Below, in pieces: positions 284 through 19,843 of a stretch of DNA of 38,197 nucleotides. Each line of letters starts with the position of its first letter. The first letter of the stretch is position 1. This stretch comes from Methanothrix harundinacea (GTDB lineage Archaea; Halobacteriota; Methanosarcinia; Methanotrichales; Methanotrichaceae): contig LGFT01000035.1 in NCBI GenBank assembly GCA_001509375.1, positions 1 to 38,197 of the forward strand, given 5' to 3'. A program made the translations under genes and the position numbers. Under the pieces are notes generated by a model. It was not told the DNA's origin. It did no database searches and saw only the letters and a program-made list of their open reading frames with translations.

Positions 284-695
284 TTAAAACACCGTGCAAC
301 CTTCATAGATCTCGGCGCCGAACTGGATGGCCCCCTCAACAGCGGCAAGATCTTTCATCAAGAAAATCCGCTCTTTTAGGGTCTCTGTGAATGCTACCGA
401 GTTCCTCAGGACCGGAGCTATATTTGCTGAACTTGTCCAGCTTGACTACGTAGCCCTTCAGCTCCTCTATAGGGTAGGCATCGAACCCGTTCCGCTCCAG
501 CAGCTTGAGAGCTTGGTTCCTCTCACCTACGGACTTGAACTCAAACCTGTACGTTTCGCGGTTGTAGTGGTCGGCAAGCTGCCTGAATAGCTCCTTGTTG
601 TCGCTGAAGAAGTGCTTGAAGACCCAGGACTCGCCGACCTTGAATACGTTGATGCGCTTCCGTCTCTCGGTGAAAATGTTGGTCGACTCGCTCAA
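284..695 (-). pseudogene. conserved hypothetical protein with a single-base frameshift
   Basis: From a TTG start at 695, directly preceded by an in-frame TAG, the frame encodes a basic, aromatic-rich protein (INVFKVGESWVFKHFF, then RFEFKSVGERNQALKLLERNGF, then GYVVKLDKFSKY). Near 418-422 the frame shifts. Removing one A restores APVLRNSV, ETLKERIFLMKDLAAVEGA and FGAEIYEG before a TAA at 284, giving about 136 residues. The restored tail is compositionally continuous with the N-terminus, so I read one gene with a one-base insertion. I recall similar proteins in methanogens but know of no function. Either a pseudogene or a sequencing error is possible. Confidence 0.5.
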
Positions 696-1050
696 CTACA
701 ATCTGAAGGAGCTTCAGCGCCTCCAAGTGCTCTACGTCTCTGGGAGCTATTCTCGCATCCTCGGCAAGCTTGATCGCCGTTTCACCGAGCTGGATGTCCG
801 CAGGGCCTTCACCGCCTACCAGCTTATGACCGTCCTCAAGGAGGCGTACCAGACTCTGATCTTATTCGAGTATGACCCAAGCCTCTTCAAAGACGCTGGT
901 GAGATGGCGGAATACGTCGGTCAAGCTCTAAAGGAAGCATCGAATGGATCAGCCGTGCTCCTGTACTCTCCATGGACTGATAGACCCCTTGAGGAGATCT
1001 CCAAGTTCGCCGCCATTCCTGGAATTCGACCTCAACTTTCTAACAGTTAG
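676..1050 (+). CDS. conserved hypothetical protein, probably C-terminally damaged
   Basis: The ATG at 676 opens a protein beginning MLVDSLNYNLKELQRLQVLY, followed by a helix-rich stretch (GSYSRILGKLDRRFTELDVR, AFTAYQLMTVLKEAYQTLIL) and a conserved-looking segment ending near AVLLYSPWTDRPLEEISKFA. The last 13 residues (IPGIRPQLSNS region) look unrelated, and a longer C-terminus is suspected to be lost. Codon use matches GC-rich neighbours. It is divergent from the gene ending at 284 and overlaps its 5' end by about 20 bases. No catalytic motif or membrane segment is visible and I cannot name the family. Confidence 0.45.
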   Translation: MLVDSLNYNLKELQRLQVLYVSGSYSRILGKLDRRFTELDVRRAFTAYQLMTVLKEAYQTLILFEYDPSLFKDAGEMAEYVGQALKEASNGSAVLLYSPWTDRPLEEISKFAAIPGIRPQLSNS

Positions 1051-1072
1051 CGTTTTACGGTAATTGCTAACT
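1040..1072. repeat. CTAAC/GTTAG inverted repeats
   Basis: CTAAC-A-GTTAG is a perfect inverted repeat at 1040-1050. Its right half (AGTTAGC, 1045-1051) is complemented again by GCTAACT at 1066-1072. The cluster sits between a hypothetical gene and a recombinase fragment. It could be a weak terminator or an operator/recombination site; no T-run follows directly. Confidence 0.35.
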
Positions 1073-1101
1073 TTTAATAGTTCTAAGCTCTCCCCTCCCT
1101 C

Positions 1102-1323
1102 GTGGTTCCCAAGCTGATCTCCCCGGCTGAGTTCAATGCCCTCGTCGACTCCCTCGAGGGCCGGGACCGGCTCATCATCAAGCTCCTGGCGGGCACGGGG
1201 CTGCGGATCTCGGAGCTGACCCGCCTGAAGAAGTCGGACTTGGACCTCGATGACAAGCACAGGGAATCAAAAAGCATAGCGAGTTTGCCTCGGAGAGCAT
1301 GCCCCAGCAGCCCAGCAAGATAA
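1102..1323 (+). pseudogene. tyrosine recombinase/integrase fragment
   Basis: The GTG-initiated frame encodes SPAEFNALVDSLEGRDRLII, then LLAGTGLRISELTRLKKSDLD. The second block is the start of the catalytic domain of XerC/D or phage-type tyrosine recombinases and contains the first catalytic Arg (in TGLRISEL). The sequence leaves the family at about position 1255, and the H-x-x-R and Tyr motifs are absent, so the protein cannot be active. It is evidence that an integrating element once lay here. No att-like duplication is visible beside it. Confidence 0.7.
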
Positions 1324-1382
1324 ATTTGAAATGATAAACACAAAAATATTAAATGTGGGACGCAGTAAAAGCGTCCAATCAT

Positions 1383-3137
1383 TCATCTGAAGAGGTCCAT
1401 GAAATTGTAGAACGCCTCTGGATCTTCTCCACTTATTTTGACGCCTCCGCTGGCTACCGCTTCCTCAGAGTCTAGCTTTCCTAAAACCAGGTTCTTCCAG
1501 GTCAGCGAGTCTGTGACAACGGTGAACGTCGGATCTTCAACAACCTCCTGTTGAACCTCTATGATCCCCCTGCGAACGTATATGACATAGTCGCCAGATA
1601 CGGAATCATCCGAGAGATCAAAGCCGACGGCGTACTCCTCGTCAAGGGCCTTGGAAGCATTGAGGCTCACAGCCATAATCCTGAATAGGGTCTCCATCGG
1701 CATGTAGAAGACCATATTATCATCCATTGCTCTGAAGCCGAGGTCGAGAATCGGAATGCTTATCTGACCTGTCTCTTCGAGATACTCGGATAGCAAGTAG
1801 TTTCTTACCTGAGCGTTTGAGGTCTCTTCGGCGAGAGATAATAACGCCGAGTTCTTGACATCTCGAGCTTCAGCATTCTCAGAGTCGAGGAGGAGAACGT
1901 TGTCTGAGAAGATCAAGGCCCGTTTCATATCGCCCTCATCCAGAGCCGCCTTCGCCTTGATGGCAAGCTCTTCGGTGCCACCGGCTAGGTAAGCCATATC
2001 CTCCGCCTCTTCGGTAGGAGAGGTCGGGAATATATCTCTGCATTTACCGGTGAACCATCCCAAGTACTGCTGGTAGATCTGGAATATATCTCGATCCACC
2101 TCGCCGTAAATTTCCTGCAAGTTTGGATCTTCGGCGAGGTGGGGCGGCAGCTCGACGACCTCAATTATCTCACCAGCGGTCAGCCCCTTGTTCATGTAGC
2201 GAACCGTCTGGTCGTGAACATACTGGAGGGCGTCCCGGGCGTTGGTGAGGGCTCGACTGATGTTTTCAGCGCCGACGATCGGCCCTCCGCTGCTGTGGAT
2301 TAAAACCAGGTATTCAGCATCGAGCTTCCTCATGCTGTCTATGCTGTTTATGTAATCCAAAGGATCTCGATAAGAGGCGCCTCGAAGCGTATTGATGGCT
2401 GGGAATGCTTTGTAGAAATTGCCTATCTGAATTAGCACCTTATCGTCCGGCAGCCAGACGTAGATTATGTCGGAGGTCTCGCCGGGAGCGTGAACCAGGG
2501 TGAGATTAACCCCGGCGATGTTCGTCTCCAGTTCGTCTCCAATGGTCAGGGTGGGCGGCAGGTATCCTGATGGGCCGAGGATCGAGAAGGGCGCGATGCC
2601 GATAGTTGTCCAGTACGCCGGATTCTTTTGGTATGGCAACCCACTCATCATCGCCGCACGGTAATATTTGATGGGTGCGATCTGGCCATCCAGGGACGCC
2701 GGACTGAAGAGATTATAATTTAGAGTCTCGTGAGCAATGATCTCCGGTGAGTCATCGCCCGCGAAGACGCTAGCTCCGTGGACGTGGCATGCATGGTAGT
2801 GGGTGTAGATGATGGCTTTTACGGGCTTTTTGGAGAATATATCATCCAAATTCTCATTGAAAGCCGCTTTAGCTGCTTCGGCACCCGGTATGCTCTCACC
2901 AGGATCGACGACAATAAGACCATCGGTTCCTTCTATCAACACGGGATTATCTTGATTGTAGCCCACAGCAACATAAACCCCATTCGTCACATTATATACG
3001 GTTGGAGGCACCCAACTCTCTGTGAGGGCGACGAGATCGGGGTTGGCTGGAACCGCCTCAGGCTCAAAGGCTGCTGCAGACGACAACCAGAAAAATAACA
3101 ATAAGATTATCGCCTTGGAACATTTCTCCCTTTCCAT
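1383..3137 (-). CDS. secreted MBL-fold protein, alkyl-sulfatase (SdsA1/YjcS)-like
   Basis: The ATG at 3137 is chosen because GAGGTGAG lies just upstream; the GTG at 3146 would overlap that site. The 584-residue product starts with a hydrophobic segment (AIILLLFFWLSSAAA), a probable signal peptide. A metallo-beta-lactamase domain follows with VVDPGES, THYHACHVHG (residues 112-121) and GETSDIIYVW, then the family-typical NTLRGASYRDPLDYI. The C-terminal half resembles the helical dimerisation and SCP2-like domains of SdsA1-type alkyl sulfatases. In active relatives the zinc motif is THxHxDH; here Asp is Cys117, and the second His of the later HH motif is absent (LIHSSGG), so substrate or activity may differ. 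It probably forms an operon with the HTH gene 33 bases upstream. Confidence 0.8.
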   Translation of the reverse strand: MEREKCSKAIILLLFFWLSSAAAFEPEAVPANPDLVALTESWVPPTVYNVTNGVYVAVGYNQDNPVLIEGTDGLIVVDPGESIPGAEAAKAAFNENLDDIFSKKPVKAIIYTHYHACHVHGASVFAGDDSPEIIAHETLNYNLFSPASLDGQIAPIKYYRAAMMSGLPYQKNPAYWTTIGIAPFSILGPSGYLPPTLTIGDELETNIAGVNLTLVHAPGETSDIIYVWLPDDKVLIQIGNFYKAFPAINTLRGASYRDPLDYINSIDSMRKLDAEYLVLIHSSGGPIVGAENISRALTNARDALQYVHDQTVRYMNKGLTAGEIIEVVELPPHLAEDPNLQEIYGEVDRDIFQIYQQYLGWFTGKCRDIFPTSPTEEAEDMAYLAGGTEELAIKAKAALDEGDMKRALIFSDNVLLLDSENAEARDVKNSALLSLAEETSNAQVRNYLLSEYLEETGQISIPILDLGFRAMDDNMVFYMPMETLFRIMAVSLNASKALDEEYAVGFDLSDDSVSGDYVIYVRRGIIEVQQEVVEDPTFTVVTDSLTWKNLVLGKLDSEEAVASGGVKISGEDPEAFYNFMDLFR

Positions 3138-3170
3138 GTTTCTCACCTCATTTTCGTCATAGCTTGCTTA

Positions 3171-3502: not shown

Positions 3503-3747
3503 CCATTATACATAATTATTGTATTCGTAACCCAAAATAGATTGTGTCAGCAAAATACTTTCGCCGTGCATGGATCGTATATTAATAATAGCCATTCCAT
3601 TGATATATTAGAGGATTCGAAGATTGCACGGCGCCCTACACGTTTCTGGGCAGAAGTACGATCTTCTCTAGTTTCCTATTTTTAGGCATGATTTGATAAT
3701 TTTGGTCGCTTCAATCAGAATTTATTGACCCCGATTCAGGGAAAGAA

Positions 3748-3757
3748 TATTTATATA
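3748..3757 (+). promoter_or_regulatory. TATA box of the ATC-hydrolase-like gene
   Basis: The sequence TATTTATATA sits 20-40 bases upstream of both candidate ATGs (3776 and 3788). A transcription start about 25 bases downstream would give a leaderless or very short-leader mRNA. Other AT-rich sequence between 3505 and 3740 shows no supportable gene. Confidence 0.5.
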
Positions 3758-3775
3758 GTCTGTGATGTTCAAAGT

Positions 3776-4288
3776 ATGGGGTTTGCTATGGTCGGTATTA
3801 AAGACGTTCCTGCAAAAACGCGGTGGGAGATTGCAACTAGATCAGCAAATTTCGCTACCGTGGCAAGAGATGCTATGTTGAGGAAAGCCTTCGACAACGA
3901 CGAAATCATCGACGAGATTGAACGGTGTATTTGGGCTGAAGGAGGGAGGGCTGTAAGAGATATAGCCATCGCTTTGGGATTGCCCTCCGGTAACGCTATC
4001 GAGATCAACGAGGCCCTCGGTGTAGTTTCTGCGATCATTTTAGGGCCAGGATTTGATGCGGAGGTTATAGAAGCTTCTGAATCCCGAGTTAATGGAAGGA
4101 TAACGAGCTGTCCCATGCTCAACACACACAGAGAACTGGGACTACCAACAGCAGGAACGCACCTGCATTGTCAGGCGTTCTGTGAGAACGGCATCCAAGG
4201 CATGAACCCACGATACGCCATGGGATATACAAAGAGGATGTGCAGAGGGGATGACTGCTGCGAATACGCGGTTGAGCTTAAGAGATGA
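3776..4288 (+). CDS. L-2-amino-thiazoline-4-carboxylic acid hydrolase-like protein
   Basis: The 170-residue product has a helical N-terminal half (VARDAMLRKAF, IIDEIERCIW, AVRDIAIALGLP). Its C-terminal half carries conserved-looking cysteines: ITSCPMLNTHRELGL, HLHCQAFCENGI, and a terminal CRGDDCCEYAVEL. This CxxxxCC-E-x-x-V-E-L ending is typical of the ATC-hydrolase-like/V4R-related proteins widespread in anaerobes, where the true substrate is usually unknown. The ATG at 3776 is used; ATG 3788 fits the TATA spacing equally well and would remove four residues. There is no signal peptide. Confidence is moderate for the family and low for the reaction. Confidence 0.65.
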   Translation: MGFAMVGIKDVPAKTRWEIATRSANFATVARDAMLRKAFDNDEIIDEIERCIWAEGGRAVRDIAIALGLPSGNAIEINEALGVVSAIILGPGFDAEVIEASESRVNGRITSCPMLNTHRELGLPTAGTHLHCQAFCENGIQGMNPRYAMGYTKRMCRGDDCCEYAVELKR

Positions 4289-4345
4289 TGGCTATCTGAG
4301 ATCCCGCACTCAGTATCGTAATTTGGGCGATTCAGGAGACCTGTC

Positions 4346-5240
4346 ATGACCATTCTGGTGGGCTGCAGCGGCTGGTCGTATGACGACTGGGTAGGAGCGG
4401 CTCTATCCCATAGGACTGGCCAAAAAGAAGGCAGAATGGTTGGCCTATTACGCCCAGTTCTTCGATACGGTAGAGATCAACAGCACCTATTACCATCCAC
4501 CAGGGGAGCGACAAGTCCATTCATGGATTAAGAAGATGAAAAATAAGGATGGCGGATTCGAGTACTCGGTGAAGATGCCGGGCCTAGTTACCCATCAGGC
4601 TCTTGTAGAAGGCGACGAGGAGAAGGCACTCTTCTGGGCATCCACCTTTGATAAGACCTGCCTATCCCCTCTCGCCGATGCAGATCTTATGGGCGGCGTT
4701 CTGTTTCAGTTATCACCTTATTTCAAGAACGAAGGACAAGCTCTGAGTCGTATGGCCATGGTTCTGGACTCTCTGGCCCAAAAGGAGTACGACCTCGCGG
4801 TGGAGTTCAGGCAAAGAAGCTGGCTGGACGAGAGCGGCAACTACCTAGATCCTCGACGTTAGAGGTTCTGAAAGAGAGGAACGCAGCCAACGTTATGATC
4901 GACTGTCCAGGACATTATCCCGGCAAGACGCTGACTGCGGATCACGCTTATTTACGCTTCCACGGCAGAAACTACGATATCTGGTACAGAAGAGAAAAAG
5001 AGGCCGATCACAGACTCGATCGGTATGACTATCTCTATGATAAGGATCAACTCGAAAGATGGATTCCCAGGATCAAGGAAGCGGATTTGAGGACTACCAA
5101 GGTCAGGATGTTTCAACAACCACGCCAGAGCCAAGGCGGTAAGGAACGCATTTCAGATGATGGACATGCTCCTGATCGAGCACAAATCCAAGGAAGTGCA
5201 TTTACAGGATCAATTCACTCTTGGGGGATTTGGAAAATAG
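4346..5240 (+). pseudogene. DUF72 family gene, broken by at least three frameshifts
   Basis: The frame opens with TILVGCSGWSYDDWVG, the hallmark N-terminus of DUF72 (YecE-like TIM-barrel) proteins. The frame then shifts near 4395-4408 to YPIGLAKKKAEWLAYYAQFFDTVEINSTYY. It shifts again near 4850-4863, where one frame stops at DPRR and another resumes with LEVLKERNAANVMIDCPG. A third shift near 5113 moves to the DUF72-typical NNHARAKAVRNAF. All pieces are collinear and recognisably one protein of about 290 residues ending at TAG 5238-5240. Several independent lesions make true decay more likely than sequencing error. DUF72 function is unclear. Confidence 0.85.
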
Positions 5241-5889
5241 CGGAATCGAGTCAAAGGCGGCCAGCACCGACCACAGCGCCCTGCCTTAAGGGACCATCAC
5301 AGGTTGATGGCCTGTCCGCCCCGAGTCTCGATTCAAAGCCGAGCAGAGAAGCATATCGCTGTCACTTTGCACCGTCCTTATACACAGCTTCCCATTCACG
5401 AGAACCCGAGAGCGTCATCCGATTGTCGGGCCTGTTGCTTGATCTGGCTCAAGCTTTGTGCCGCATCTCGCACTTGGCGAGAACTCTCGGATTTGGCTGA
5501 GTTGAGCATATACTACGCCCGTTACGGCGTGCATATATCCGACCTCATCGGTTCTCAGCCTCCCCAATGCTTTCCGGATGCTGCCTCGATAGACAGCACC
5601 TCTTAGGTCTAGCCTGAAGAGCCTGCCGGTATGCTTGTCCTCGTTCTTACAGCACGAAACGCGGCAAACCTTACATATGATCGTTAGAGATACTTGTAGT
5701 TTGCGGTTGATGAAAGAGGTAATGGAATGATGTTGGGTGGCACTGCACAAGAAAATGCTTAAGGCGCTGGTCCTAATCGGTCTAAGCCGGGTTATCGCAC
5801 TCATTAGAAGGAGATATAAGCGACGGCGTTAGATCCACTCCATACTGGGCGGATGAAATTCTTTTACATAGAGAATGTGGACGACAAAG
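5241..5889. other. intergenic stretch without a supportable gene
   Basis: Open frames on both strands here lack family signatures, membrane segments or matching start signals. A 17-codon frame at 5852-5905 (MKFFYIENVDD...) is too short to judge. The stretch follows a decayed gene and probably consists of more eroded sequence. Confidence 0.4.
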
Positions 5890-6699
5890 TCAACAACAAC
5901 GGGTAATAATATTATTTATTATATTTGATATTAATTCTTTTGTGCAAATGAATTGAGTTGCCTTGGTGCCTGTTTCTTCATTCATATATGAGCTTCTGTT
6001 CACCTCGATCATGATAGAGGATACTCTTCCATCTTTCCCAAAACACTCTAATGGCACATAGGTTCCAGCAAAGGGCTTGTCGATGGCTACTTTGATTCCA
6101 TTAGCTTCACAGAACGATAGCGTCGCCTCTATCAACACCTTTGGAGTATGGAACGAATCGGTGCCGATACAGATATCAGGTCTATTGGGATCTTGATCTA
6201 TTTCGTATGGCAGCGGCTTTGATGGGAATGAGTGGCAATCAATTATAAGACATCGATCAAACCGGTCTAGTATTCCTTCCACCTCTAACTCCACAGCTCT
6301 ATGATACGGCCTGTAATATGTGGAAAGCAGCTCTTCCCTTTCTTTTCCAGAAAGATCTCTTCTTAGTACCTGCTGGTATGCCGTTCTTGTATAGATTACC
6401 CCCATCCCTTTCGAAGCCATTACTTCTTTCTCATTGTCTTCAAACCTCTCAGGATCGATTACCAGCCTGCTATAATTGTTCACCAGAGCAATGCCACCTA
6501 AGTCGACAGCGGCATCAAAAAGCTCAGGGGTATAGCGGTCGGTTATAAGAAGTAGCTCTTTCTCAAGGTCACTATCGCTTAATACGATAGAGCGGCGTAC
6601 ATCTTCCGGAATGAATGTGGAGCCATGCGGCACGTGGGCTATCACTGGAACTTTTATCTCTCCCTTCGTGATTGCACTAATTGGGTTCGTATGATGCAT
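5890..6699 (-). CDS. N-formylglutamate amidohydrolase family protein
   Basis: The 269-residue protein shows the N-formylglutamate amidohydrolase (FGase) pattern: IAHVPHGSTFIPEDVR, then DRYTPELFDAA, NYSRLVIDPERF, IIDCHSFPSKPLPYE and, near the C-terminus, IMIEVNRSSYM. The PHG, NRxxID-like and DCHS segments are the positions that hold the metal and catalytic residues in this family. The known reaction releases formate from N-formylglutamate in histidine degradation, but no hut genes are near, so the physiological substrate is uncertain. It is cytosolic, with no signal peptide. The gene stands alone between a decayed gene and a long intergenic region; its ATG at 6699 has only a weak ribosome site. 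Confidence 0.85.
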   Translation of the reverse strand: MHHTNPISAITKGEIKVPVIAHVPHGSTFIPEDVRRSIVLSDSDLEKELLLITDRYTPELFDAAVDLGGIALVNNYSRLVIDPERFEDNEKEVMASKGMGVIYTRTAYQQVLRRDLSGKEREELLSTYYRPYHRAVELEVEGILDRFDRCLIIDCHSFPSKPLPYEIDQDPNRPDICIGTDSFHTPKVLIEATLSFCEANGIKVAIDKPFAGTYVPLECFGKDGRVSSIMIEVNRSSYMNEETGTKATQFICTKELISNIINNIITRCC

Positions 6700-7236
6700 T
6701 GCTGACGTTCCTTTCCGGCTTTCGGTAATTCAACGCTGTTCCATGATAAATCAGTTCGATATGGGCTATATGGGTTATTATTCTCTCTTATCACTTAGAA
6801 AAGGAGTATGTAGAGATGTTAAAAGAATAGAAGGAAGAAGAAAACAGTGGCTCCTCGCTGATTTGTGTGGGTGGATTTAAGTGATCTCGAATCCTGTGGC
6901 TTGGTCTTTATAACTTCATGACTGCAGGGAATTGGGTTGATCACGTGATGTATCGCTACCTGTTGACTCAGGAACGGAATTCATGGCAGGTATTTGAATG
7001 ATCGAGTCAACTTATCGCTATCCTGAAGTTACCCACACGGAATAGCGAAGAGCCTAATTTTTGGTTGTGGCAACCTATCCAGGGCAGATGAAAATCCATT
7101 AGGCAGCATCGAGTAATGGTCGAGGTAACAGGATTGCGTTACCTACTGCGGAAAAAGACTTATATTATAGAGTAGAACGAATCCTTTGAAGCGGTCAAAT
7201 TGCCTCCGAAAAACCGACACACGAGGAGCGATAATG
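6700..7236. other. 537-base intergenic region
   Basis: The region is AT-richer than the coding flanks and no frame has coding character. A 10-base palindrome ATCACGTGAT lies at about 6942-6951. Its proximal end presumably carries the promoter of the amidohydrolase gene, but I see no clear TATA box close to 6699. Confidence 0.4.
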
Positions 7237-7309
7237 TGGGGCCACGGCGATTTGAACGCCGGTTACAGGACCCCCAGTCCTGTGGGATACCAGGCTACCC
7301 TATGGCCCC
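7237..7309 (-). tRNA. tRNA-Pro(GGG)
   Basis: Read on the minus strand, the 73 bases fold as a tRNA. The acceptor arm is GGGGCCA paired to TGGCCCC with discriminator A. The D arm has GGGT...TCCC, the anticodon stem is CAGGA/TCCTG around the loop CTGGGGG, and the T arm is CGGCG/CGCCG with GTTCAAAT-type loop sequence (TTCAAAT). The anticodon is GGG, which reads CCC/CCU proline codons. CCA is not encoded and no intron is seen. A TATA box lies about 30 bases upstream. Confidence 0.93.
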
Positions 7310-7336
7310 GCTGCGGATTCGAGGACGCTGACCACC

Positions 7337-7344
7337 CATATAAA
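7337..7344 (-). promoter_or_regulatory. box A/TATA of the tRNA-Pro gene
   Basis: On the minus strand CTTTATATGGG is centred about 31 bases before the first tRNA base (7309), the normal archaeal spacing for a promoter. It immediately follows the stop codon (7347) of the upstream small membrane protein gene. Confidence 0.65.
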
Positions 7345-7346
7345 GC

Positions 7347-7595
7347 TTATCGCCAGGCGGCCTCGCGCCTCGCGCCGACCTCCACCATCCAGAGGCCGCA
7401 GAGGACCAGAAGGCCGTTGAAGAAGAAGGCTATCGGATTCAGGGGGTTCGGGACGATGGTGAAGAGGAAGACCCCCGCCGCAATGGTCCCGAGGCCCGCC
7501 ATGACGATCCCCGCCCGGACCGAGACGAGGGTGTAAAGGATGCCCACAGATATCAGAACTATCCCCGCCATGATCAGCGGGTTGAACTCTATCAT
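7347..7595 (-). CDS. small three-span membrane protein
   Basis: The 82-residue product is almost entirely hydrophobic, with three predicted spans at about residues 7-24 (LIMAGIVLISVGILYTLV), 27-48 (RAGIVMAGLGTIAAGVFLFT) and 54-75 (PIAFFFNGLLVLCGLWMVEV). The short C-terminal tail is basic (ARREAAWR). A TATA-like GTATAAG lies at 7622-7628, 30 bases before the ATG, so the transcript is probably near-leaderless. It lies just upstream of tRNA-Pro on the same strand. No function can be assigned. Confidence 0.65.
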   Translation of the reverse strand: MIEFNPLIMAGIVLISVGILYTLVSVRAGIVMAGLGTIAAGVFLFTIVPNPLNPIAFFFNGLLVLCGLWMVEVGARREAAWR

Positions 7596-7843
7596 GTCCG
7601 GAAATATCGCGGCCGTTTACTTATACGTTGCCGTCGTCGTCTTTCGCCATCCGGTCGCCTTTCCTCCCTCTTTTCGCCGCAGTCGGGTTTTTTGCTCTTC
7701 AGCGGTCCGATAAGTCGCCTCCTTTCGCCCTCGGTTTTTTTGCGCCGCCGGGGCCTTCTGGTCCTCGGGTCGTCGGGCCCGTCAGGTCTTCAGATCTTCG
7801 CCCCTCGGCCCGTCTCGTCGCCCTCCTCCTCACCCTTCGCCGC

Positions 7844-7850
7844 CTATTTA
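7844..7850 (+). promoter_or_regulatory. TATA-like box of the cysteine desulfurase gene
   Basis: CTATTTA stands out in a very GC/pyrimidine-rich 280-base leader and is centred 29 bases upstream of ATG 7876. This supports that start and a leaderless mRNA over the in-frame ATG at 7855. Confidence 0.45.
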
Positions 7851-7875
7851 CCCTATGGGCTCCTCGGATTTCCCC

Positions 7876-9036
7876 ATGAAGAGGATCTACATGGACCACG
7901 CCTCCACCACCCCGATGGCCCCGGAGGTGATCGAGGCGATGAAGACGGCCTTCGTCGAGACCTTCGGCAACGCCTCAAGCCTCCACCAGCCGGGTCTTGC
8001 AGCCCGGGGGGCCCTGGAGGAGGCCCGCGAGGGGGTCGCAGGGCTGATCGGGGCGAAGGCGGAGGAGGTCTACTTCACCAGCGGCGGGACCGAATCGGAC
8101 AACTTTGCGATTAAAGGCGTCGCCCTCCGGAATCGGGACAGGGGACGGCACATCATCACCACCTCCATCGAGCACCCCGCAGTCCTGGAGCCGTGCAGGT
8201 ATCTGGAGCAGCAGGGCTTCGAGGTGACTTATTTGCCCGTTACAAAGGAGGGGCTCGTCGAGGTCGACGTTCTGGAGTCGGTGATCAGGAAGGATACGAT
8301 CCTCATATCGATGATGCACGCCAACAACGAGATCGGTACCATCCAGCCCATCGCCGAGGCGGGTTCGATCGCTCGCGATCGGGGGATCGCCTTCCACACC
8401 GACGCCGTCCAGACCGTCGGCAAGATCCCGGCGAAGGTCGACGACCTCGGCGTCGATCTGCTTTCGGTGTCTTCGCACAAGCTCCACGGCCCCAAAGGGG
8501 TAGGCGCCCTCTACATCCGGGAGGGGACTAATATCGAGCCGATGATGCTCGGTGGAGGCCACGAGCGGGGAATGAGGTCCGGGACCGAGAACGTCCCCGG
8601 GATCGTCGGTCTCGCGGCGGCGGCGGACCTCGCTGGAAGGAACCTGGAGGGGGATATGACCCATCTCGCGGGGATGAGAGACAGGCTCGCTGAGTTCGTC
8701 CTGGTGAGGGTCAAAGACTCCTGGGTGAACGGCTCTCGGACGAGGAGGCTTCCGAACAACCTCAACCTAGGCTTCTCTTACATCGAGGGGGAGGCTCTCC
8801 TGCTACGGCTCGATGCCGAAGGGATCGCCGTCTCGACGGGATCGGCCTGCTCATCAAAGAAGACGGTAGCAAGCCACGTCCTCACCGCCATAGGCCTGCG
8901 GCCCGAAGAGGCCCACGGGTCCCTGCGGATAACCCTGGGGAGGGAGAACACCGACGAGGAGGTCGATTTCGTAGCCAGGGCCATCGTCGATGTGGCGGAG
9001 AAGCTCCTGGCGATGTCGCCTTTCAGGAGATCTTGA
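7876..9036 (+). CDS. nifS: cysteine desulfurase (NifS/IscS family)
   Basis: This PLP enzyme takes sulfur from L-cysteine and delivers it as a persulfide to iron-sulfur cluster assembly. From ATG 7876 (MKRIYMDHASTTPM) it has 386 residues. Visible motifs are TSGGTESDNFAIKG, SIEHPAV (His100), HANNEIGTIQP, HTDAVQT, SSHKLHGPKG with the PLP lysine Lys202, RSGTENVPGIVG, and the mobile loop STGSACSS with catalytic Cys325. All catalytic residues are present and the length is normal for the NifS/IscS group. No scaffold (iscU/nifU) gene is adjacent, so its partners are elsewhere. The converging PUA-domain gene ends 40 bases downstream. Confidence 0.93.
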   Translation: MKRIYMDHASTTPMAPEVIEAMKTAFVETFGNASSLHQPGLAARGALEEAREGVAGLIGAKAEEVYFTSGGTESDNFAIKGVALRNRDRGRHIITTSIEHPAVLEPCRYLEQQGFEVTYLPVTKEGLVEVDVLESVIRKDTILISMMHANNEIGTIQPIAEAGSIARDRGIAFHTDAVQTVGKIPAKVDDLGVDLLSVSSHKLHGPKGVGALYIREGTNIEPMMLGGGHERGMRSGTENVPGIVGLAAAADLAGRNLEGDMTHLAGMRDRLAEFVLVRVKDSWVNGSRTRRLPNNLNLGFSYIEGEALLLRLDAEGIAVSTGSACSSKKTVASHVLTAIGLRPEEAHGSLRITLGRENTDEEVDFVARAIVDVAEKLLAMSPFRRS

Positions 9037-9075
9037 GGGGCGAGATCTTTCTCACCCGTCTCATCCCTCAACCCC

Positions 9076-9549
9076 TCAGTCCTCTTCGCCGCCCCGGTCC
9101 TCCTCCTGGCCGGACCTCACGAGGACCGCAGGGCCCCGGTTGATCTCCATCATCTCCTCGGGGGAGAGAACGGCCCGACCGGTGGCGATGAGACGTCCAT
9201 CCTCGTCGACTACGAGGACCTCCTCCCCGGCCCGGATCTCGGGGTCGACGGCGACGACGTGCTTGGCGAAGGCCGTCCCGCCCCGGGCGACGTAGGGCGC
9301 CACCTCGCTTCTGATGACGACCCTCTGCCGGGGGGCCAGGAGGTGGTCGTAAAGGAGCCTCGCGCCCAAACCACTCAAGGTCAGAAGGCCGTCTCGAGCC
9401 CTCACCGTCGCTATCCTCTCATCGCCCCGATAAAGGTGCCTCAGCCTTCCGGTATTCGAGAGCATAAAGGTGGTATCGTCTCCGAATAGGGCTCGGCCGC
9501 TCCCGCGTCCGAACTGAAAGTCGGCTATAATCCTGGCCCGTTTGAGCAT
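9076..9549 (-). CDS. PUA domain protein (COG1370-like)
   Basis: The ATG at 9549 gives 157 residues beginning MLKRARIIADFQFGRGSGRA, the usual start of the small archaeal PUA proteins related to the C-terminal part of archaeosine tRNA-guanine transglycosylase. The N-terminal half (FQFG, LSNTGRLRHL, ATVRARDGLLTLSGLGARLL) is the pre-PUA segment. The PUA domain spans about residues 75-145 (RVVIRSEVAPYVARGGTAFA, EEVLVVDEDGRLIATGRAVL). An RNA-binding role in tRNA or rRNA modification is likely from the fold; the substrate is not known. The tail is acidic (EEDRGGEED). Confidence 0.82.
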   Translation of the reverse strand: MLKRARIIADFQFGRGSGRALFGDDTTFMLSNTGRLRHLYRGDERIATVRARDGLLTLSGLGARLLYDHLLAPRQRVVIRSEVAPYVARGGTAFAKHVVAVDPEIRAGEEVLVVDEDGRLIATGRAVLSPEEMMEINRGPAVLVRSGQEEDRGGEED

Positions 9550-13895: not shown

Positions 13896-14849
13896 TTGGA
13901 CAGGCTTGAGCTTGTGATCAGGAATGCAGAGGAGATCGTCACGCTGGACGAGCTCAAGGCGTTGATGGAGGAAAAGGGGCAACCGAGGGCCTACGTGGGG
14001 TACGAGCCGAGCGGCAAGGTCCACATGGGCCACATGCTCACCGCAAATAAATTGATCGACCTCCAGACAGCGGGCTTCCAGGTCGTAGTCCTCCTGGCGG
14101 ACCTCCACGCCTACCTGAACGAGAAGGGGACTCTGGAAGAGGTGAGGGCAACGGCCGATTACAATCGGGACTGCTTCATCGCCCTGGGCCTGGACCCCGA
14201 TAAGACCGAGTTCGTCTACGGGACCGACTACCAGCTCGAGCCTGAATACGTGAAGAACGTCCTGAAGATGGCGAGGAACACCACCCTCAACAGGGCCCGC
14301 CGCTCCATGGACGAGGTGGGTCGGAACATGGACAACCCCCACGTCTCCCAGATGATCTACCCCCTGATGCAGGCGGTGGACATCGCGGCCCTCAGAGTCG
14401 ATCTGGCCGTCGGCGGGATCGACCAGAGGAAGATCCACATGCTGGCAAGAGAAGAGATGCCGCGGCTCGGCCTGCAGCCTCCTGTCTGCCTCCACACCCC
14501 CATCATCTCCGGCCTCAACGGCGGGAAGATGTCCTCGTCGAAGGGGAACTACATCTCCGTCGACGATACCGCCGAGGACCTGGACAAGAAGATCATGTCC
14601 GCCTACTGCCCGGCAAAGGACATCGAAGGAAACCCCGTCACCGAGCTCTTCAAGTATCACATCCTCCCCCGCCTCGGGAGCGTCACCATAAGAAGGCCCG
14701 AGAAGTTCGGAGGCGATGTGACCTACGATAAGTACGAGGCCCTGGAGATGGACTATCTGGTCGGGAAGATGCACCCCCTCGACCTCAAGAAGAGCGCCGT
14801 CGAGCACCTCAACATCATACTGGAGCCGGTGCGGGAGAAGATGGGGTGA
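13896..14849 (+). CDS. tyrS: tyrosyl-tRNA synthetase
   Basis: This archaeal/eukaryal-type TyrRS charges tRNA-Tyr. The start is TTG 13896, with GGTGAT five bases upstream. The 317-residue protein has YVGYEPSGKVHMGHM (HIGH-type motif HMGH at 43-46), the LLADLHAYLN and QMIYPLMQAVDIAALRVDLA segments, GGIDQRK, and the KMSKS-type loop KMSSSKG at 211-217. It lacks the bacterial S4 tail, as expected. From codon 221 to the stop and a few bases beyond, its sequence is repeated at 19319-19614 with about 90% identity. A 9-base inverted repeat follows the stop. Confidence 0.95.
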   Translation: MDRLELVIRNAEEIVTLDELKALMEEKGQPRAYVGYEPSGKVHMGHMLTANKLIDLQTAGFQVVVLLADLHAYLNEKGTLEEVRATADYNRDCFIALGLDPDKTEFVYGTDYQLEPEYVKNVLKMARNTTLNRARRSMDEVGRNMDNPHVSQMIYPLMQAVDIAALRVDLAVGGIDQRKIHMLAREEMPRLGLQPPVCLHTPIISGLNGGKMSSSKGNYISVDDTAEDLDKKIMSAYCPAKDIEGNPVTELFKYHILPRLGSVTIRRPEKFGGDVTYDKYEALEMDYLVGKMHPLDLKKSAVEHLNIILEPVREKMG

Positions 14850-14855
14850 AGGACG
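14559..14855 (+). repeat. tyrS 3' repeat, left copy
   Basis: This 297-base segment matches 19319-19620 in the same orientation. By hand alignment I count about 31 mismatches and no gaps. Most lie at third codon positions; 10 of 97 amino acids differ, mostly conservatively. The pair brackets the TIR/toxin-antitoxin island. Confidence 0.9.
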
Positions 14856-14899: not shown

Positions 14900-17146
14900 T
14901 TAGATATCGATATTTCGAGCGATTTTAAGATTGGGAGTTGTCTTAGTTGGAATGGACCAGGCGCCTCTGCGATTTCCTCTTAAATCGTTATCTACTATGC
15001 TACCAATACCACCATCAAACACTCTTATTGCTTCGGAATAATTCGCGTTAATTTTATTCTGACTTACCACTGGATTTCCTGTTGACTGTATCTCGATACC
15101 TGCAAATTTATTCCATATAATATTATTATCCCTTAAAACTCCTTTGCCGTTATCCCAAATCAAAACCCCATTTTGCTCACCATTTCGAATATTATTTCTA
15201 AATATATTGGGGTTTCCATGGGTTGCTATCTCAATCCCTGAATAAAAATTTCCGAAAATATCGTTGTTTTCAATGATTCCCAAACCACTCTCGTGAACAA
15301 AAACGCCATTTTCTCTATTCTTATATATTTTGTTATATTTCAAGTTTGGATTTCCCGATGTACGAATTTGAACGCCCGAAAGACTATTATTAAAGATTTC
15401 ATTCGCTTCAAGAATGCCGCGGCCACTATCTTGTATTCTAACTCCGAATTGCTTATTATCATGTATCATGTTGCGTTGTAATATTGGATTGCTGTTTTTC
15501 TCTACTTCTATCCCGTGAACATTACCGAAAATATCGTTATCTTCAATAACACCTAATCCATTATCCCATATGTAAATACCATCTGATTTTCCTCTGTAAA
15601 TTCGATTATGGCGTAATTTTGGATTTCCTTGAGATTTTATTGCTACAGCGTCACTTTCATTTCCGAATATATCGTTGTTTTCCAGTACCCCAAAGCCACC
15701 ATCCAATACAAATATGCCGCCCTGTTTTCCGTCACGAATGCTATTATGGCGGAGTATCGGATTTCCATTTGACCTGATACCTACACCGTCATGTCCATTA
15801 TCAGAAATATCGTTATGTTCTAGGATACCAAGGCCATAGTTGGTTACTATTATACCACTTTCTTTATTATTATAAATTTTATTATATCTTATATTCGGGT
15901 TTCCCCCATCTCGTATCTCGATACCAGCAATATTTTTGAAAATCTCATTATTCTCAAATATCCCTAGTCCGTCTTTATGTACGAGGATACCGCCTTGTTT
16001 TCCATCGCGAATCCGATTGAGACGTAAGATAGGATTAGCAAAATTCTTAATCTCTATGCCAGAAAATGAATTATCAAAAATATCATTATCTTCTAAAATT
16101 CCTCGAGCATTGTCAAATATAAATACACCACATTGAGCACTACCATGAATACTATTATGCTTAAGTAGCGGATTTGCACCATGATGTATGCCAACACATG
16201 GTGACTCTTGACTAGTTATTTCGCAGTTTTCAATTACAATAGACCCAAACGGGATGTCGACACAGAACCAATTCCCACTGACTTGTTTCAAGGAAATATT
16301 TTTAACACAACCGTGGGACGCTACCGATGCAAGAACGCTTCTCTCTGCAGCTCGTACTACTATATTATTCGAATCGCCTTCGCCCACAATTTCTAAATTC
16401 TTATTAATAATAATTGATTCATCATAAATGCCAGGGCGAATAACAATTTTATCGCCCATGTTTGATGCTTTAATTGCATCATTAATATTTTTAAAGCATT
16501 TATTTTGGTTTTTATCGACTATTAAAGTTTGAGTGTACTTTTTTTCAATTAATTTTTCATCTTTGGCAAAACGTTCATCCAATTGGCCACTTATATCACT
16601 GGAACTGTCTAAGATCGTCTCATCTGATTTTTGTAATCTATCTATGGCATTGGTAATGTCCAACGCCAATTCCTCCAACCTCTCATTGAATTTGACTAAT
16701 TTTAGACTCTTGCCTCTTAGGTCCCTCCAATCTTTGTATTGATGATCTTTAATCAAATTGACTAACTCATCATCTGGCGTAGTATTGGTCTCCATTTGCT
16801 CGCATCTTATGTAATATATTGGAAGGATTAAATCATTACGGTTTACGTTTTTCCCATATTCTGCAAATTGCCGCAATTCATCAAGACATGCTTCACTAGC
16901 AAAATAATTGGGGGTAATTATAGGAATTAGAAAAGTAACACCTCGAAGCGATTCGGTAATCCTTTCTATCCAATTTTGGCCCCATTCTATGCTATTTCGA
17001 TCTTGGAAAATTGGAAATTCCTTTGCATGATGACTTCGTACTTCACCGCTAAGGCGGTCTCGAAGCTTTGTCAGATATCCATGATCATGATTATCATCGT
17101 GATGGGAATAGCTAAAGAAAGCTGCTGGTTGCATGATCGTGGACAT
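14900..17146 (-). CDS. TIR domain fused to a right-handed beta-helix
   Basis: ATG 17146 is chosen because GGTGAT lies six bases upstream; an in-frame ATG at 17182 is less likely. The 748-residue protein starts with a TIR domain (about 6-165): AAFFSYSHHDD, QDRNSIEWGQNWI, LIPIITPNYFASEACLDELR, with the putative NADase Glu90. A hydrophilic linker (170-205) leads to a beta-helix (about 206-740) opened by FKNINDAIKASNMGDKIVIR and built of nine repeats of about 46 residues of the pattern GNPxLRHNxIxxxKxxGI then LExNDIFGN. No signal peptide or membrane span is seen. The gene is far more AT-rich than its surroundings and has a TATA box at 17202-17214, suggesting horizontal origin. TIR proteins commonly cleave NAD+ in prokaryotic immunity; the beta-helix may sense a target. 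Role inferred. Confidence 0.88.
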   Translation of the reverse strand: MSTIMQPAAFFSYSHHDDNHDHGYLTKLRDRLSGEVRSHHAKEFPIFQDRNSIEWGQNWIERITESLRGVTFLIPIITPNYFASEACLDELRQFAEYGKNVNRNDLILPIYYIRCEQMETNTTPDDELVNLIKDHQYKDWRDLRGKSLKLVKFNERLEELALDITNAIDRLQKSDETILDSSSDISGQLDERFAKDEKLIEKKYTQTLIVDKNQNKCFKNINDAIKASNMGDKIVIRPGIYDESIIINKNLEIVGEGDSNNIVVRAAERSVLASVASHGCVKNISLKQVSGNWFCVDIPFGSIVIENCEITSQESPCVGIHHGANPLLKHNSIHGSAQCGVFIFDNARGILEDNDIFDNSFSGIEIKNFANPILRLNRIRDGKQGGILVHKDGLGIFENNEIFKNIAGIEIRDGGNPNIRYNKIYNNKESGIIVTNYGLGILEHNDISDNGHDGVGIRSNGNPILRHNSIRDGKQGGIFVLDGGFGVLENNDIFGNESDAVAIKSQGNPKLRHNRIYRGKSDGIYIWDNGLGVIEDNDIFGNVHGIEVEKNSNPILQRNMIHDNKQFGVRIQDSGRGILEANEIFNNSLSGVQIRTSGNPNLKYNKIYKNRENGVFVHESGLGIIENNDIFGNFYSGIEIATHGNPNIFRNNIRNGEQNGVLIWDNGKGVLRDNNIIWNKFAGIEIQSTGNPVVSQNKINANYSEAIRVFDGGIGSIVDNDLRGNRRGAWSIPTKTTPNLKIARNIDI

Positions 17147-17201
17147 AGCCCAATCACCTTGGACGACTTCTCCATTAAACATTTAAATAGCTTTTTACAA
17201 A

Positions 17202-17214
17202 CTTATATATTATA
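17202..17214 (-). promoter_or_regulatory. TATA box of the TIR gene
   Basis: The minus strand reads TATAATATATAAG about 56-68 bases before ATG 17146, predicting a transcription start near 17180. That would leave a leader containing the GGTGAT site (17153-17158), so translation here is Shine-Dalgarno driven. Confidence 0.55.
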
Positions 17215-17215
17215 A

Positions 17216-17626
17216 AAACTACTATCTCTCCCAACCACATCATCCATAATCAGCCACCAACAACCCTAACAGATCGGCCTCACACCACTCCCCGATAGAA
17301 CGCGAGCCTCCTCGCATACGGCCGAAAGAGCCCGAGCAGCTTCTCCTCCTCCTCCTCGCCGGACAGCGGCTCCGCTTCCCGCCCCATTCGAGCGAGGAGC
17401 CGGACCTCCTCGCGGATCGAGAGCCTACGACGCCGATAGCGGTCTCCCGATACCAGGCGCGCCCGAGGATGAGGCGAGACCGATCCCGGCCCTAGGGTCG
17501 AGGCGGCGGGACGCCCCCGGGACCCTCATCCCGACGACGGCGGGGTCGTCATGGCTCATCAGTCCAATTATAGCTTCAAAATATCATGGGTCGAAGTCTG
17601 GTTTTCTCCGGCATCAGTTGCACCGA
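17216..17626. other. intergenic region with GC-rich remnant
   Basis: After an AT-rich promoter, the sequence switches to very GC-rich DNA (about 17275-17555). On the minus strand it contains a protein-like helical stretch (SIREEVRLLARMGREAEPL, then EEEEKLLGLFRPYARRL) without a valid start or upstream frame. This looks like the 3' end of a lost gene. Part of it is repeated at 18455-18605. Confidence 0.45.
17397..17545 (+). repeat. GC-rich direct repeat, copy 1
   Basis: This matches 18455-18605 in the same orientation through ordered shared blocks: GAGCCGGAC, CGGTCTCCCGA, GGCGCGCCCG, a block of about 23 identical bases containing GTCGAGGCGGCGGGACGC, GGGACCC and TCCCGACG. Spacing differs slightly. 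The two copies flank the DUF104/PIN pair. Confidence 0.7.
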
Positions 17627-18124
17627 TCAAGGCTTCCACAGCTTAATCCAATCGACCCTCTCAAAATCCTGATCGTTGGATGCCAACGTGCTTGCCCCTT
17701 CCTTCTGCATCGTGGCCAGGTGGACGGCATCATTGGAGAGAAGGCCGTAATTTCTCGAATGCTCCAGGGACTGCCTCATCACTTCGACCCCCACCCCAGC
17801 GATCTTGAGATTCTCGATCTGCTCGATGCTCTCGATGGCTGACCACGCCGCTTCAAGGTCCCTTATCGCGCTCGGATTCTCCTTCAAATATCTGACAGCA
17901 CGCTTCGGGTCTATTTTGAACTTCTCAACGACCTCGGCGATCATGACCCTGTGGAAGACTTCGTTGCATACAAAGACCGACGAAACGGCATAATACCTGC
18001 CGCGGTTCACGTCCTTCAGGAGGTTGCCGCACGACTCGGCATATCTCCAGTGATCGAAGATTTTGTAAAGAAATATATTTGCATCTATGAAAATGATTGT
18101 GCCAGGCTCGATATCATTCGGCAT
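17627..18124 (-). CDS. PIN-domain toxin (VapC family)
   Basis: PIN-domain ribonucleases of the VapC type cut RNA and are held in check by a cognate antitoxin. The 165-residue protein has the four acidic positions: Asp14 (IIFIDANIFLY), Glu55 (VCNEVFHRV), Asp132 (LLSNDAVHLATM) and Asp151/Asp153 (TLASNDQDFERV). Its ATG overlaps the antitoxin stop as TGATG (18122-18126), a sign of translational coupling. It lies between two GC-rich repeats in an island of toxin-antitoxin modules. The catalytic set appears complete. The target RNA is unknown. Confidence 0.9.
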   Translation of the reverse strand: MPNDIEPGTIIFIDANIFLYKIFDHWRYAESCGNLLKDVNRGRYYAVSSVFVCNEVFHRVMIAEVVEKFKIDPKRAVRYLKENPSAIRDLEAAWSAIESIEQIENLKIAGVGVEVMRQSLEHSRNYGLLSNDAVHLATMQKEGASTLASNDQDFERVDWIKLWKP

Positions 18125-18312
18125 CAGACCGGCTCCAGTTCCGGACTTTCAACCAGTTCATCAGCCCAGTCCTTGCGAGAGATCCTGACCAGGCCACCCA
18201 GCCGATCTACAGCATCCCTCTTTATCTCGATATCCACAACCTCTCCCTCTCTGAGGTTGAGCTTCTCCAGAGGCTTCAAGACGTCATTTTCGTAAATAGC
18301 CTTCACTCCCAT
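18124..18312 (-). CDS. DUF104/AF2212-like antitoxin
   Basis: The ATG at 18312 has GGTGA five bases upstream (18318-18322) and gives 62 residues. MGVKAIYENDVLKPLEKLNL followed by REGEVVDIEI is the AbrB-like swapped-hairpin core of DUF104 antitoxins, known partners of PIN toxins in archaea. The C-terminal part (GGLVRISRKDWADELVESPE) would wrap the toxin. A TATA-like ACTAAAAA/GTATAAG element lies at about 18340-18346. The stop overlaps the toxin start. Confidence 0.87.
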   Translation of the reverse strand: MGVKAIYENDVLKPLEKLNLREGEVVDIEIKRDAVDRLGGLVRISRKDWADELVESPELEPV

Positions 18313-18454
18313 CAGGGTCACCTTTCACAAATTGGATTTCTTATACTAAAAACTTGCTCATCTGATGGTATAGCGGCGATCTACCTCGATCAATCCTCTC
18401 AAAACCCAGTCGAGCCAAAAAAATGAGGTTTAATTTAAGCCCCACCTCGGCGAT

Positions 18455-18605
18455 GAGCCGGACTTCCCCGGCGATCGACCAGCCGACAGCGGCGAGGGCG
18501 GTCTCCCGAGACCCGGCGCGCCCGTGACGTAGATCGGCGCCGGTCCCCGGCCCCGGGGTCGAGGCGGCGGGACGCCCCTGGGACCCGCGTCCCGACGGCG
18601 ACGCC
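18455..18605 (+). repeat. GC-rich direct repeat, copy 2
   Basis: Partner of 17397-17545. The minus-strand translations of both share GSxGRPAAST, GPG and SI-x-x-EVRL-x-A elements, so both descend from the same formerly coding sequence. Confidence 0.7.
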
Positions 18606-18831: not shown

Positions 18832-19038
18832 TTGAAAATCAGAGATGTCATTAAGCTGATAGAGGCAGACGGCTGGAGACTGGTGACCACAAGAGGGAGC
18901 CACAGGCAGTTCAAGCACCCATTTAAGAAGGGACGTGTCACGATCGCAGGCAAGCCGGATCTGGATCTCCATCCCAAGACCCTGAAAAGCATATTAAATC
19001 AGGCGGACCTAAAGGAGGTTGAAGATGACCAGAGCTAG
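18832..19038 (+). CDS. hicA: HicA-family mRNA interferase toxin
   Basis: The 68-residue protein from a TTG start (weak GAGG at 18821) is a typical HicA: IRDVIKLIEADGWRLV, then RGSHRQFKHP with the catalytic His, then GRVTIAGKP and a C-terminal LKSILNQADL helix. This double-stranded-RNA-binding-like fold cleaves mRNA. It overlaps hicB by 14 bases, forming the usual hicAB operon, and carries its own palindromic control region. Confidence 0.9.
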   Translation: MKIRDVIKLIEADGWRLVTTRGSHRQFKHPFKKGRVTIAGKPDLDLHPKTLKSILNQADLKEVEDDQS

Positions 19039-19246
19039 ATATGCGATTATTATCGAGAAGGGCGAAAGAAATTACTCTGCATACTGCCCGGACCTTCCCG
19101 GCGTAGCCGCCGCCGGCGAGACCGAAGAGGAGACGGCAGAGCTGATGAGAGAAGCGATAGAGTTTCATCTGGAAGGCCTGAAAGAAGACAACCTCCCCAT
19201 ACCCGAGCCGACCACCACCGCGAGATGCGTCGAAATTTCTGTCTGA
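19025..19246 (+). CDS. hicB: HicB-family antitoxin
   Basis: ATG 19025 is preceded by GGAGG at 19014-19018, inside the hicA 3' end. The 73-residue protein carries the partial RNase H-like HicB fold: RYAIIIEKGERNYSAYCPDL, PGVAAAGETEEETAELMREA, then IEFHLEGLKEDNLPIPEPT. No separate DNA-binding tail is present, so it is a short HicB. It neutralises HicA. Confidence 0.9.
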   Translation: MTRARYAIIIEKGERNYSAYCPDLPGVAAAGETEEETAELMREAIEFHLEGLKEDNLPIPEPTTTARCVEISV

Positions 19247-19318: not shown

Positions 19319-19614
19319 GCTCCGTCGACGATTCCGCCGAGGATCTGGAGAAGAAGATAATGTCCGCTTACTGCCCGGCAAAAGACATCGAGGGCAACCC
19401 CGTCACCGAGCTATTCAAGTATCACATCCTCCCCCGCCTGGGTAGCGTCACCATCAAGCGGCCCGAGAAGTTCGGGGGCGACGTCACCTACGAGAGGTAC
19501 GATGGCCTTGAGGCGGACTATCTGGCCGGGAAGATGCACCCCCTCGACCTCAAGAAGAGCGCCGTCGAGCATCTCAACGCCATATTGGAGCCGGTGCGGG
19601 AGAAGATGGGGTGA
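19319..19614 (+). pseudogene. duplicate of the tyrS 3' end
   Basis: The frame encodes the last 97 residues of TyrRS (from SVDDSAEDLEKKIMSAY to EPVREKMG) with no start, HIGH motif or KMSKS loop, so it cannot make an enzyme. Differences from the intact tyrS copy are mainly synonymous or conservative (T/S, D/E, R/K), with no frameshift or stop. This suggests it derives from a functional tyrS of a related lineage, or is the original 3' end displaced by an insertion. Confidence 0.9.
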
Positions 19615-19843
19615 AGGGCGGCAGCGGGATGCTGTCGGCCCTCAAACTTAAAGGGTTTGAAGGCCGTAGCGCAAAATGAATTAAGTTACTCGGATTGTTG
19701 CCCACCGCTTGGGACATCCACAGTACAGCGAAAATAATCAAAATGAAAAATGATCTGTACGACGCTCGGCATGGTGTAAGAAGGCGGTATTTGGCCTTTT
19801 TTCCGAGCGCCTTTGGGTTGCTTACAAATGTTCCTGTGTCGGC

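Follow-up and report, generated by a model that had tools for sequence, protein, structure and literature searches.

The 38,197-nucleotide stretch of Methanothrix harundinacea DNA that we analysed (the window) encodes a 748-residue protein in which a TIR domain is fused to a right-handed parallel beta-helix, and this protein, judged from its sequence and its modelled structure, is probably a TIR NADase with a role in defence. The fusion probably represents a virus-triggered alarm of an uncharacterised type, whose sensor is unusual. We somewhat prefer to read it as a TIR enzyme of the cytoplasm in which the beta-helix is both sensor and assembly scaffold, within a defence module composed of a SLATT gene and a TIR-beta-helix gene. 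The features of the locus are compiled in Table 1.

Table 1. Features of the TIR-beta-helix gene and its surroundings in the window.
Feature	Coordinates	Strand	Basis
TIR-beta-helix gene, 748 aa	14900..17146	(-)	ORF reading, Pfam, AlphaFold
TIR domain, residues 1-178 (about 1-173 in the full-length AlphaFold model)	16613..17146	(-)	Pfam, AlphaFold, Foldseek
Glu90 codon (putative catalytic residue of S-x-x-C-x-x-E)	16877..16879	(-)	Alignment of TIRs
Shine-Dalgarno-like AAGGTGAT before the 17146 start	17153..17160	(-)	Sequence reading
Disordered linker, residues 174-204	16535..16627	(-)	pLDDT <50
Beta-helix N-cap, residues 205-323	16178..16534	(-)	Family-specific profile; 8 matches in 50 genomes
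Nine repeats of 45/46 residues, residues 324-735, two beta-helix coils each	14942..16177	(-)	AlphaFold, self-comparison
VapBC-type module: PIN toxin 17627-18124, AF2212-like antitoxin 18124-18321	17627..18321	(-)	Pfam
HicAB module: HicA 18832-19038, HicB 19019-19246	18832..19246	(+)	Pfam
Left copy of the 300-bp direct repeat on either side of the island, at the 3' end of the intact tyrS (13896-14849)	14555..14854	(+)	
tyrS 3' remnant, right repeat copy, 90% identical	19320..19619	(+)	

The gene is free of internal stops, and its full open frame spans 14900..17182(-). The methionine at 17146 is a better start than the ORF limit at 17182, since AAGGTGAT lies 6 nt upstream of it and relatives start at the equivalent point; a TATA-like stretch can be read further upstream, at about 17203-17217. 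The coordinates 14900-17146 given in the initial annotation are thus right, as is its description of the gene as AT-rich (GC content 36%, versus 60% in the upstream flank). No hydrophobic membrane-like segment was seen in the encoded protein.

At the N-terminus, the Pfam profiles TIR_2 (6.4e-10) and TIR (6.1e-7) both matched above cut-off, and AlphaFold modelling of this part alone (pLDDT 81.5) gave a flavodoxin-like TIR fold with a helix at residues 85-100. In the full-length model described below, confidence in the TIR is low over residues 50-65, which lie towards the substrate pocket. When the model of the TIR alone was compared with the PDB by Foldseek, the matches were the TIRs of RPP1, L6, RUN1, SNC1, TLRs, SARM1 and SPARTA, so that NADase TIRs are among the nearest solved folds. 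Glu90, in the alpha-C helix region, is invariant in 13/13 aligned TIRs, the window TIR counted, from archaeal as well as bacterial members, and it aligns with the CLDEL motif of plant TIRs, whose glutamate is catalytic. The complete TIR fold with Glu90 in SEACLDELR that had been claimed from the sequence is therefore borne out by the motif, the profiles, the model and the alignment. In the TIR tree, few members of the clade have a terminal branch as long as that of the window TIR; relations within the clade are poorly separated, and the tree does not place the beta-helix fusions in one clade or in several.

The remainder of the protein matched the Pfam profiles Beta_helix (4.6e-78) and NosD (3.3e-35), again above cut-off. 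A full-length AlphaFold model, built with an alignment of relatives, reached a mean pLDDT of 88, and the beta-helix (about residues 205-748) exceeds 90 over almost its whole length; the structure prediction that the initial annotation had called for thus yielded both a TIR fold and a confidently modelled beta-helix. Self-comparison of the solenoid at a shift of 46 residues gave 27% identity, versus a maximum of 13% over 200 shuffles, and the nine repeats of about 46 residues proposed earlier proved to be exactly nine. The repeat number varies widely among relatives, and in two of them (L020 and L018) neighbouring repeats remain near-copies of each other at the DNA level, with 85-90% matches, which points to recent repeat expansion.

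The architecture is rare and patchy, being found in Methanothrix, in one ANME-2 archaeon and in one Chloroflexota genome. Searching 50 genomes of the order with the TIR identified 6 loci in 4 genomes, while a profile of the beta-helix cap gave 8 matches at 201-229 bits in 50 genomes of the order, the next best scoring 61; all eight cap-bearing genes (8/8) are TIR fusions. When about 85,000 genomes were scanned, the ANME-2 and the Chloroflexota proteins came to light, together with a further Chloroflexi gene that is incomplete at a contig end. A phylum sample of 394 genomes contained two positives, both from the same genus, and in a Chloroflexota class sample of 393 genomes the only proteins with both TIR and beta-helix were those already known. 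No member of the family was found in phage records, the plasmid search returned two distant TIR matches only, and the cap had no matches in viral contigs. One TIR relative from viral contigs was rejected as a family member, its C-terminal part resembling CobT-vWA fusions and not a beta-helix.

Other proteins of the same TIR clade indicate which position the beta-helix occupies. In Methanosarcinales METP1 (L023), a TIR that is 44% identical is fused to NB-ARC and TPR, and in L022 and L024, as well as L027 by sequence, TIRs of this clade are fused to a CobT-type vWA domain, these loci coming from Alphaproteobacteria and, again by sequence, from one IMG/VR contig. Since such close TIRs carry NB-ARC-TPR or vWA there, the beta-helix takes up the usual sensor or assembly slot, in agreement with the earlier proposal that it stands in for a sensor or oligomerisation domain. 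Variants of the architecture were also noted: (i) in L025, within 3702-9191 (-), a TIR-beta-helix gene reads as having an extra domain inserted between TIR and helix, and the genes divergently upstream of it read as a pair of Hsp70-like genes and one that may encode a J-domain protein, and (ii) in the Chloroflexota locus L062, at 691-3146 (-), the N-terminal domain of a beta-helix protein is of another type, and its gene overlaps one whose product reads like a vWA protein.

In 6/8 cap loci of the order (G008, G009, two in G025, G036 and G039), a two-transmembrane (2TM) SLATT/DUF4231 gene lies directly upstream on the same strand, in an operon-like arrangement with a gap of 100-130 nt; for four Methanothrix loci the gap is about 106-128 nt. 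Its product has two hydrophobic stretches and scores 123 bits with NCBIfam SLATT_1, whose cut-off is 41; one of the two G025 copies contains an in-frame TAG. In G036 and G039, a TIR of a different clade is carried on the same beta-helix next to SLATT: for the TIR of G039, identity is as low as about 30% across a stretch of about 100 residues, and its beta-helix is 66% identical to that of its nearest relative, L019. The TIR was thus exchanged while beta-helix and SLATT stayed, and this retention, together with the frequency of the linkage, argues for functional coupling at these loci. Between L015 and L016, dN/dS values of 0.14-0.20 for SLATT, TIR and N-cap show purifying selection, and hence functional genes in that pair. 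G010 has a lone SLATT at the syntenic argB locus, where the TIR gene is missing and no remnant of it was found beside SLATT. The corresponding argB locus of the window genome reads as a probable transposase gene with contig breaks, and neither PF14015 nor the SLATT profile built here had a match in that genome (97.5% complete). The view that no partner effector is adjacent therefore holds for the window genome, but for the family neither it nor the suggestion drawn from it, that the protein may act alone, is supported, since SLATT adjoins most loci of the order. Elsewhere in the Methanothrix genome that contains L025, a TIR-TPR gene (L057, 931-3215 (-)) overlaps a double-SLATT gene.

In the window, the TIR-beta-helix gene, VapBC and HicAB sit between the intact tyrS and a 300-bp remnant of the tyrS 3' end. 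The sequence just past this remnant matches that following tyrS in G007 and G014, so the island appears to have been inserted at the tyrS 3' end. The toxin-antitoxin modules beside the gene number two by Pfam, and not three as first counted. Relatives differ at this site: G007 has a DUF499/HmaC gene, G010 a caspase-EACC1 type gene close to a pair of integrase genes, G014 a DpnII-MboI-like nuclease gene and G009 HicB, and none of these conflict-type genes are present there in G011 and G012. Across the genus, the 3' end of tyrS is a variable hotspot that holds conflict-type genes; the comparison was chosen after the repeat had been seen and is hence supportive and not a statistical test. Along with the SLATT linkage in relatives, it lends support to a likely conflict role. 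Also seen at these loci were a 975-aa ORF downstream of tyrS in G010 (L081, 8870-11797 (-)), an odd fusion of an EACC1-type caspase, DUF3417 and an alpha-glucan phosphorylase, and, in the island itself, two GC-rich repeat copies of about 160 bp (17381-17542 and 18439-18603), probably non-coding and 75-88% identical in blocks. Further off in the window, at 4440-5500, a DUF72 gene seems to be divided between the ORFs 4440-4862 and 4895-5500 and is perhaps a pseudogene.

The mechanism that we envisage, in which NADase activity, ligand sensing, signal-gated SLATT and an anti-viral effect are all putative, would begin with an infection-related ligand binding along the solenoid. TIR-beta-helix molecules would then cluster, allowing their TIR domains to assemble and to cleave NAD+ via Glu90, and the cell would be halted through loss of NAD+ or, if it has SLATT, through an NAD-derived signal opening a SLATT membrane channel. 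Because SLATT is missing from the window genome, NAD+ depletion or an unlinked effector would be the likelier output there. Less likely, in our view, is a direct-sensing immune receptor, in which a beta-helix of evolvable length would attach to a repetitive structure of a virus or a cell surface and line up the TIRs, whose product would open the SLATT channel.

The absence of SLATT at some loci raises the prospect, which we consider unlikely, that the protein is a stand-alone NADase of abortive infection, its beta-helix only oligomerising, SLATT being an optional passenger and the output always being NAD+ loss. The loci without SLATT (those of the window, ANME-2 and Chloroflexota genomes and one other Methanothrix locus) would fit such a protein, as would a repeat number that varies as for a scaffold and the persistence, in one species, of SLATT without the TIR gene; the position of SLATT directly upstream in most loci of the order, kept through the TIR swap, speaks against it. 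Some TIRs act without NADase activity, and the TIR might be a non-catalytic interaction domain in a housekeeping scaffold or regulator. The setting of most family loci, in ordinary housekeeping or metabolic neighbourhoods, accords with this, but a Glu90 invariant across archaea and bacteria and the NADase TIRs among the nearest folds do not, and a patchy distribution with gene loss at a syntenic locus is hardly that of a housekeeping scaffold, so that we judge this explanation improbable.

We give very little credence to the beta-helix being an active polysaccharide-processing enzyme, of the alginate epimerase or pectate-lyase-like kind, with the TIR as its regulator. Its nearest structures by Foldseek are indeed phage tail proteins, AlgE/AlgG epimerases and PL6 lyases, but no curated enzyme family in Pfam or NCBIfam matched it above cut-off, glycines, hydrophobics and asparagines make up most of the invariant columns of the cap alignment, which show no cluster of acidic residues, and the protein shows no membrane-like segment.

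If a beta-helix does act as sensor or scaffold in so compact a module, with one gene for it and one for a predicted channel, the known range of immune sensor folds would broaden, and direct sensing by the beta-helix, if true, would define a receptor class without STAND ATPase, LRR or TPR. Such a small SLATT plus TIR-beta-helix system would also allow a direct test of SLATT gating by a TIR product. The finding points to defence in acetate-using methanogens, of which, to our knowledge, little is known.

Prokaryotic TIR defence proteins include Ago-associated, SAVED, STING and STAND sensors. At the window locus, PADLOC gave a single weak match (PDC-S66, 24.6 bits) and no known defence system was completed. 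In relatives, a TIR enzyme adjoining a separate predicted effector gene recalls Thoeris (ThsB TIR plus ThsA), but the window gene has tyrS, VapBC and HicAB as neighbours and no adjacent ThsA, no ThsB match was obtained in PADLOC, and the TIR is fused to a solenoid. The TIR part matches NCBIfam FxsC_Nterm at 38.8 bits, well below the cut-off of 130, and no FxsA or FxsB neighbours were recognised. With NosD and other parallel beta-helix repeat proteins, the window protein shares fold and repeat family; it differs in its TIR fusion, in showing no membrane or secretion segment, and in scoring 51.5 bits against the NosD subfamily cut-off of 300 (NCBIfam), which sets it apart from the NosD copper protein. 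The co-occurrence of TIR and SLATT has already been described, in GAP1-centred conflict systems (PMC7159879) and in Firmicute phages (PMC9503650), where SLATT is predicted to be a membrane effector, paired with TIRs and opened by a nucleotide or ADP-ribose-derived signal. The adjacent 2TM SLATT is common to these pairs and to the present family; what sets the family apart is the repeat beta-helix joined to its TIR. Neither GAP1/GTPase nor phage surroundings were seen here, and the window copy has no SLATT. The TIR-SLATT pairing is thus published, while for the fusion of TIR with beta-helix (also searched as NosD or PbH1) no relevant paper was found in the open-access literature, itself weak evidence of absence. 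The TIR clade is shared with the STAND/NLR-like architecture TIR-NB-ARC-TPR of L023; the window protein carries no NB-ARC or other STAND NTPase domain by Pfam, and the beta-helix stands in place of NB-ARC and TPR.
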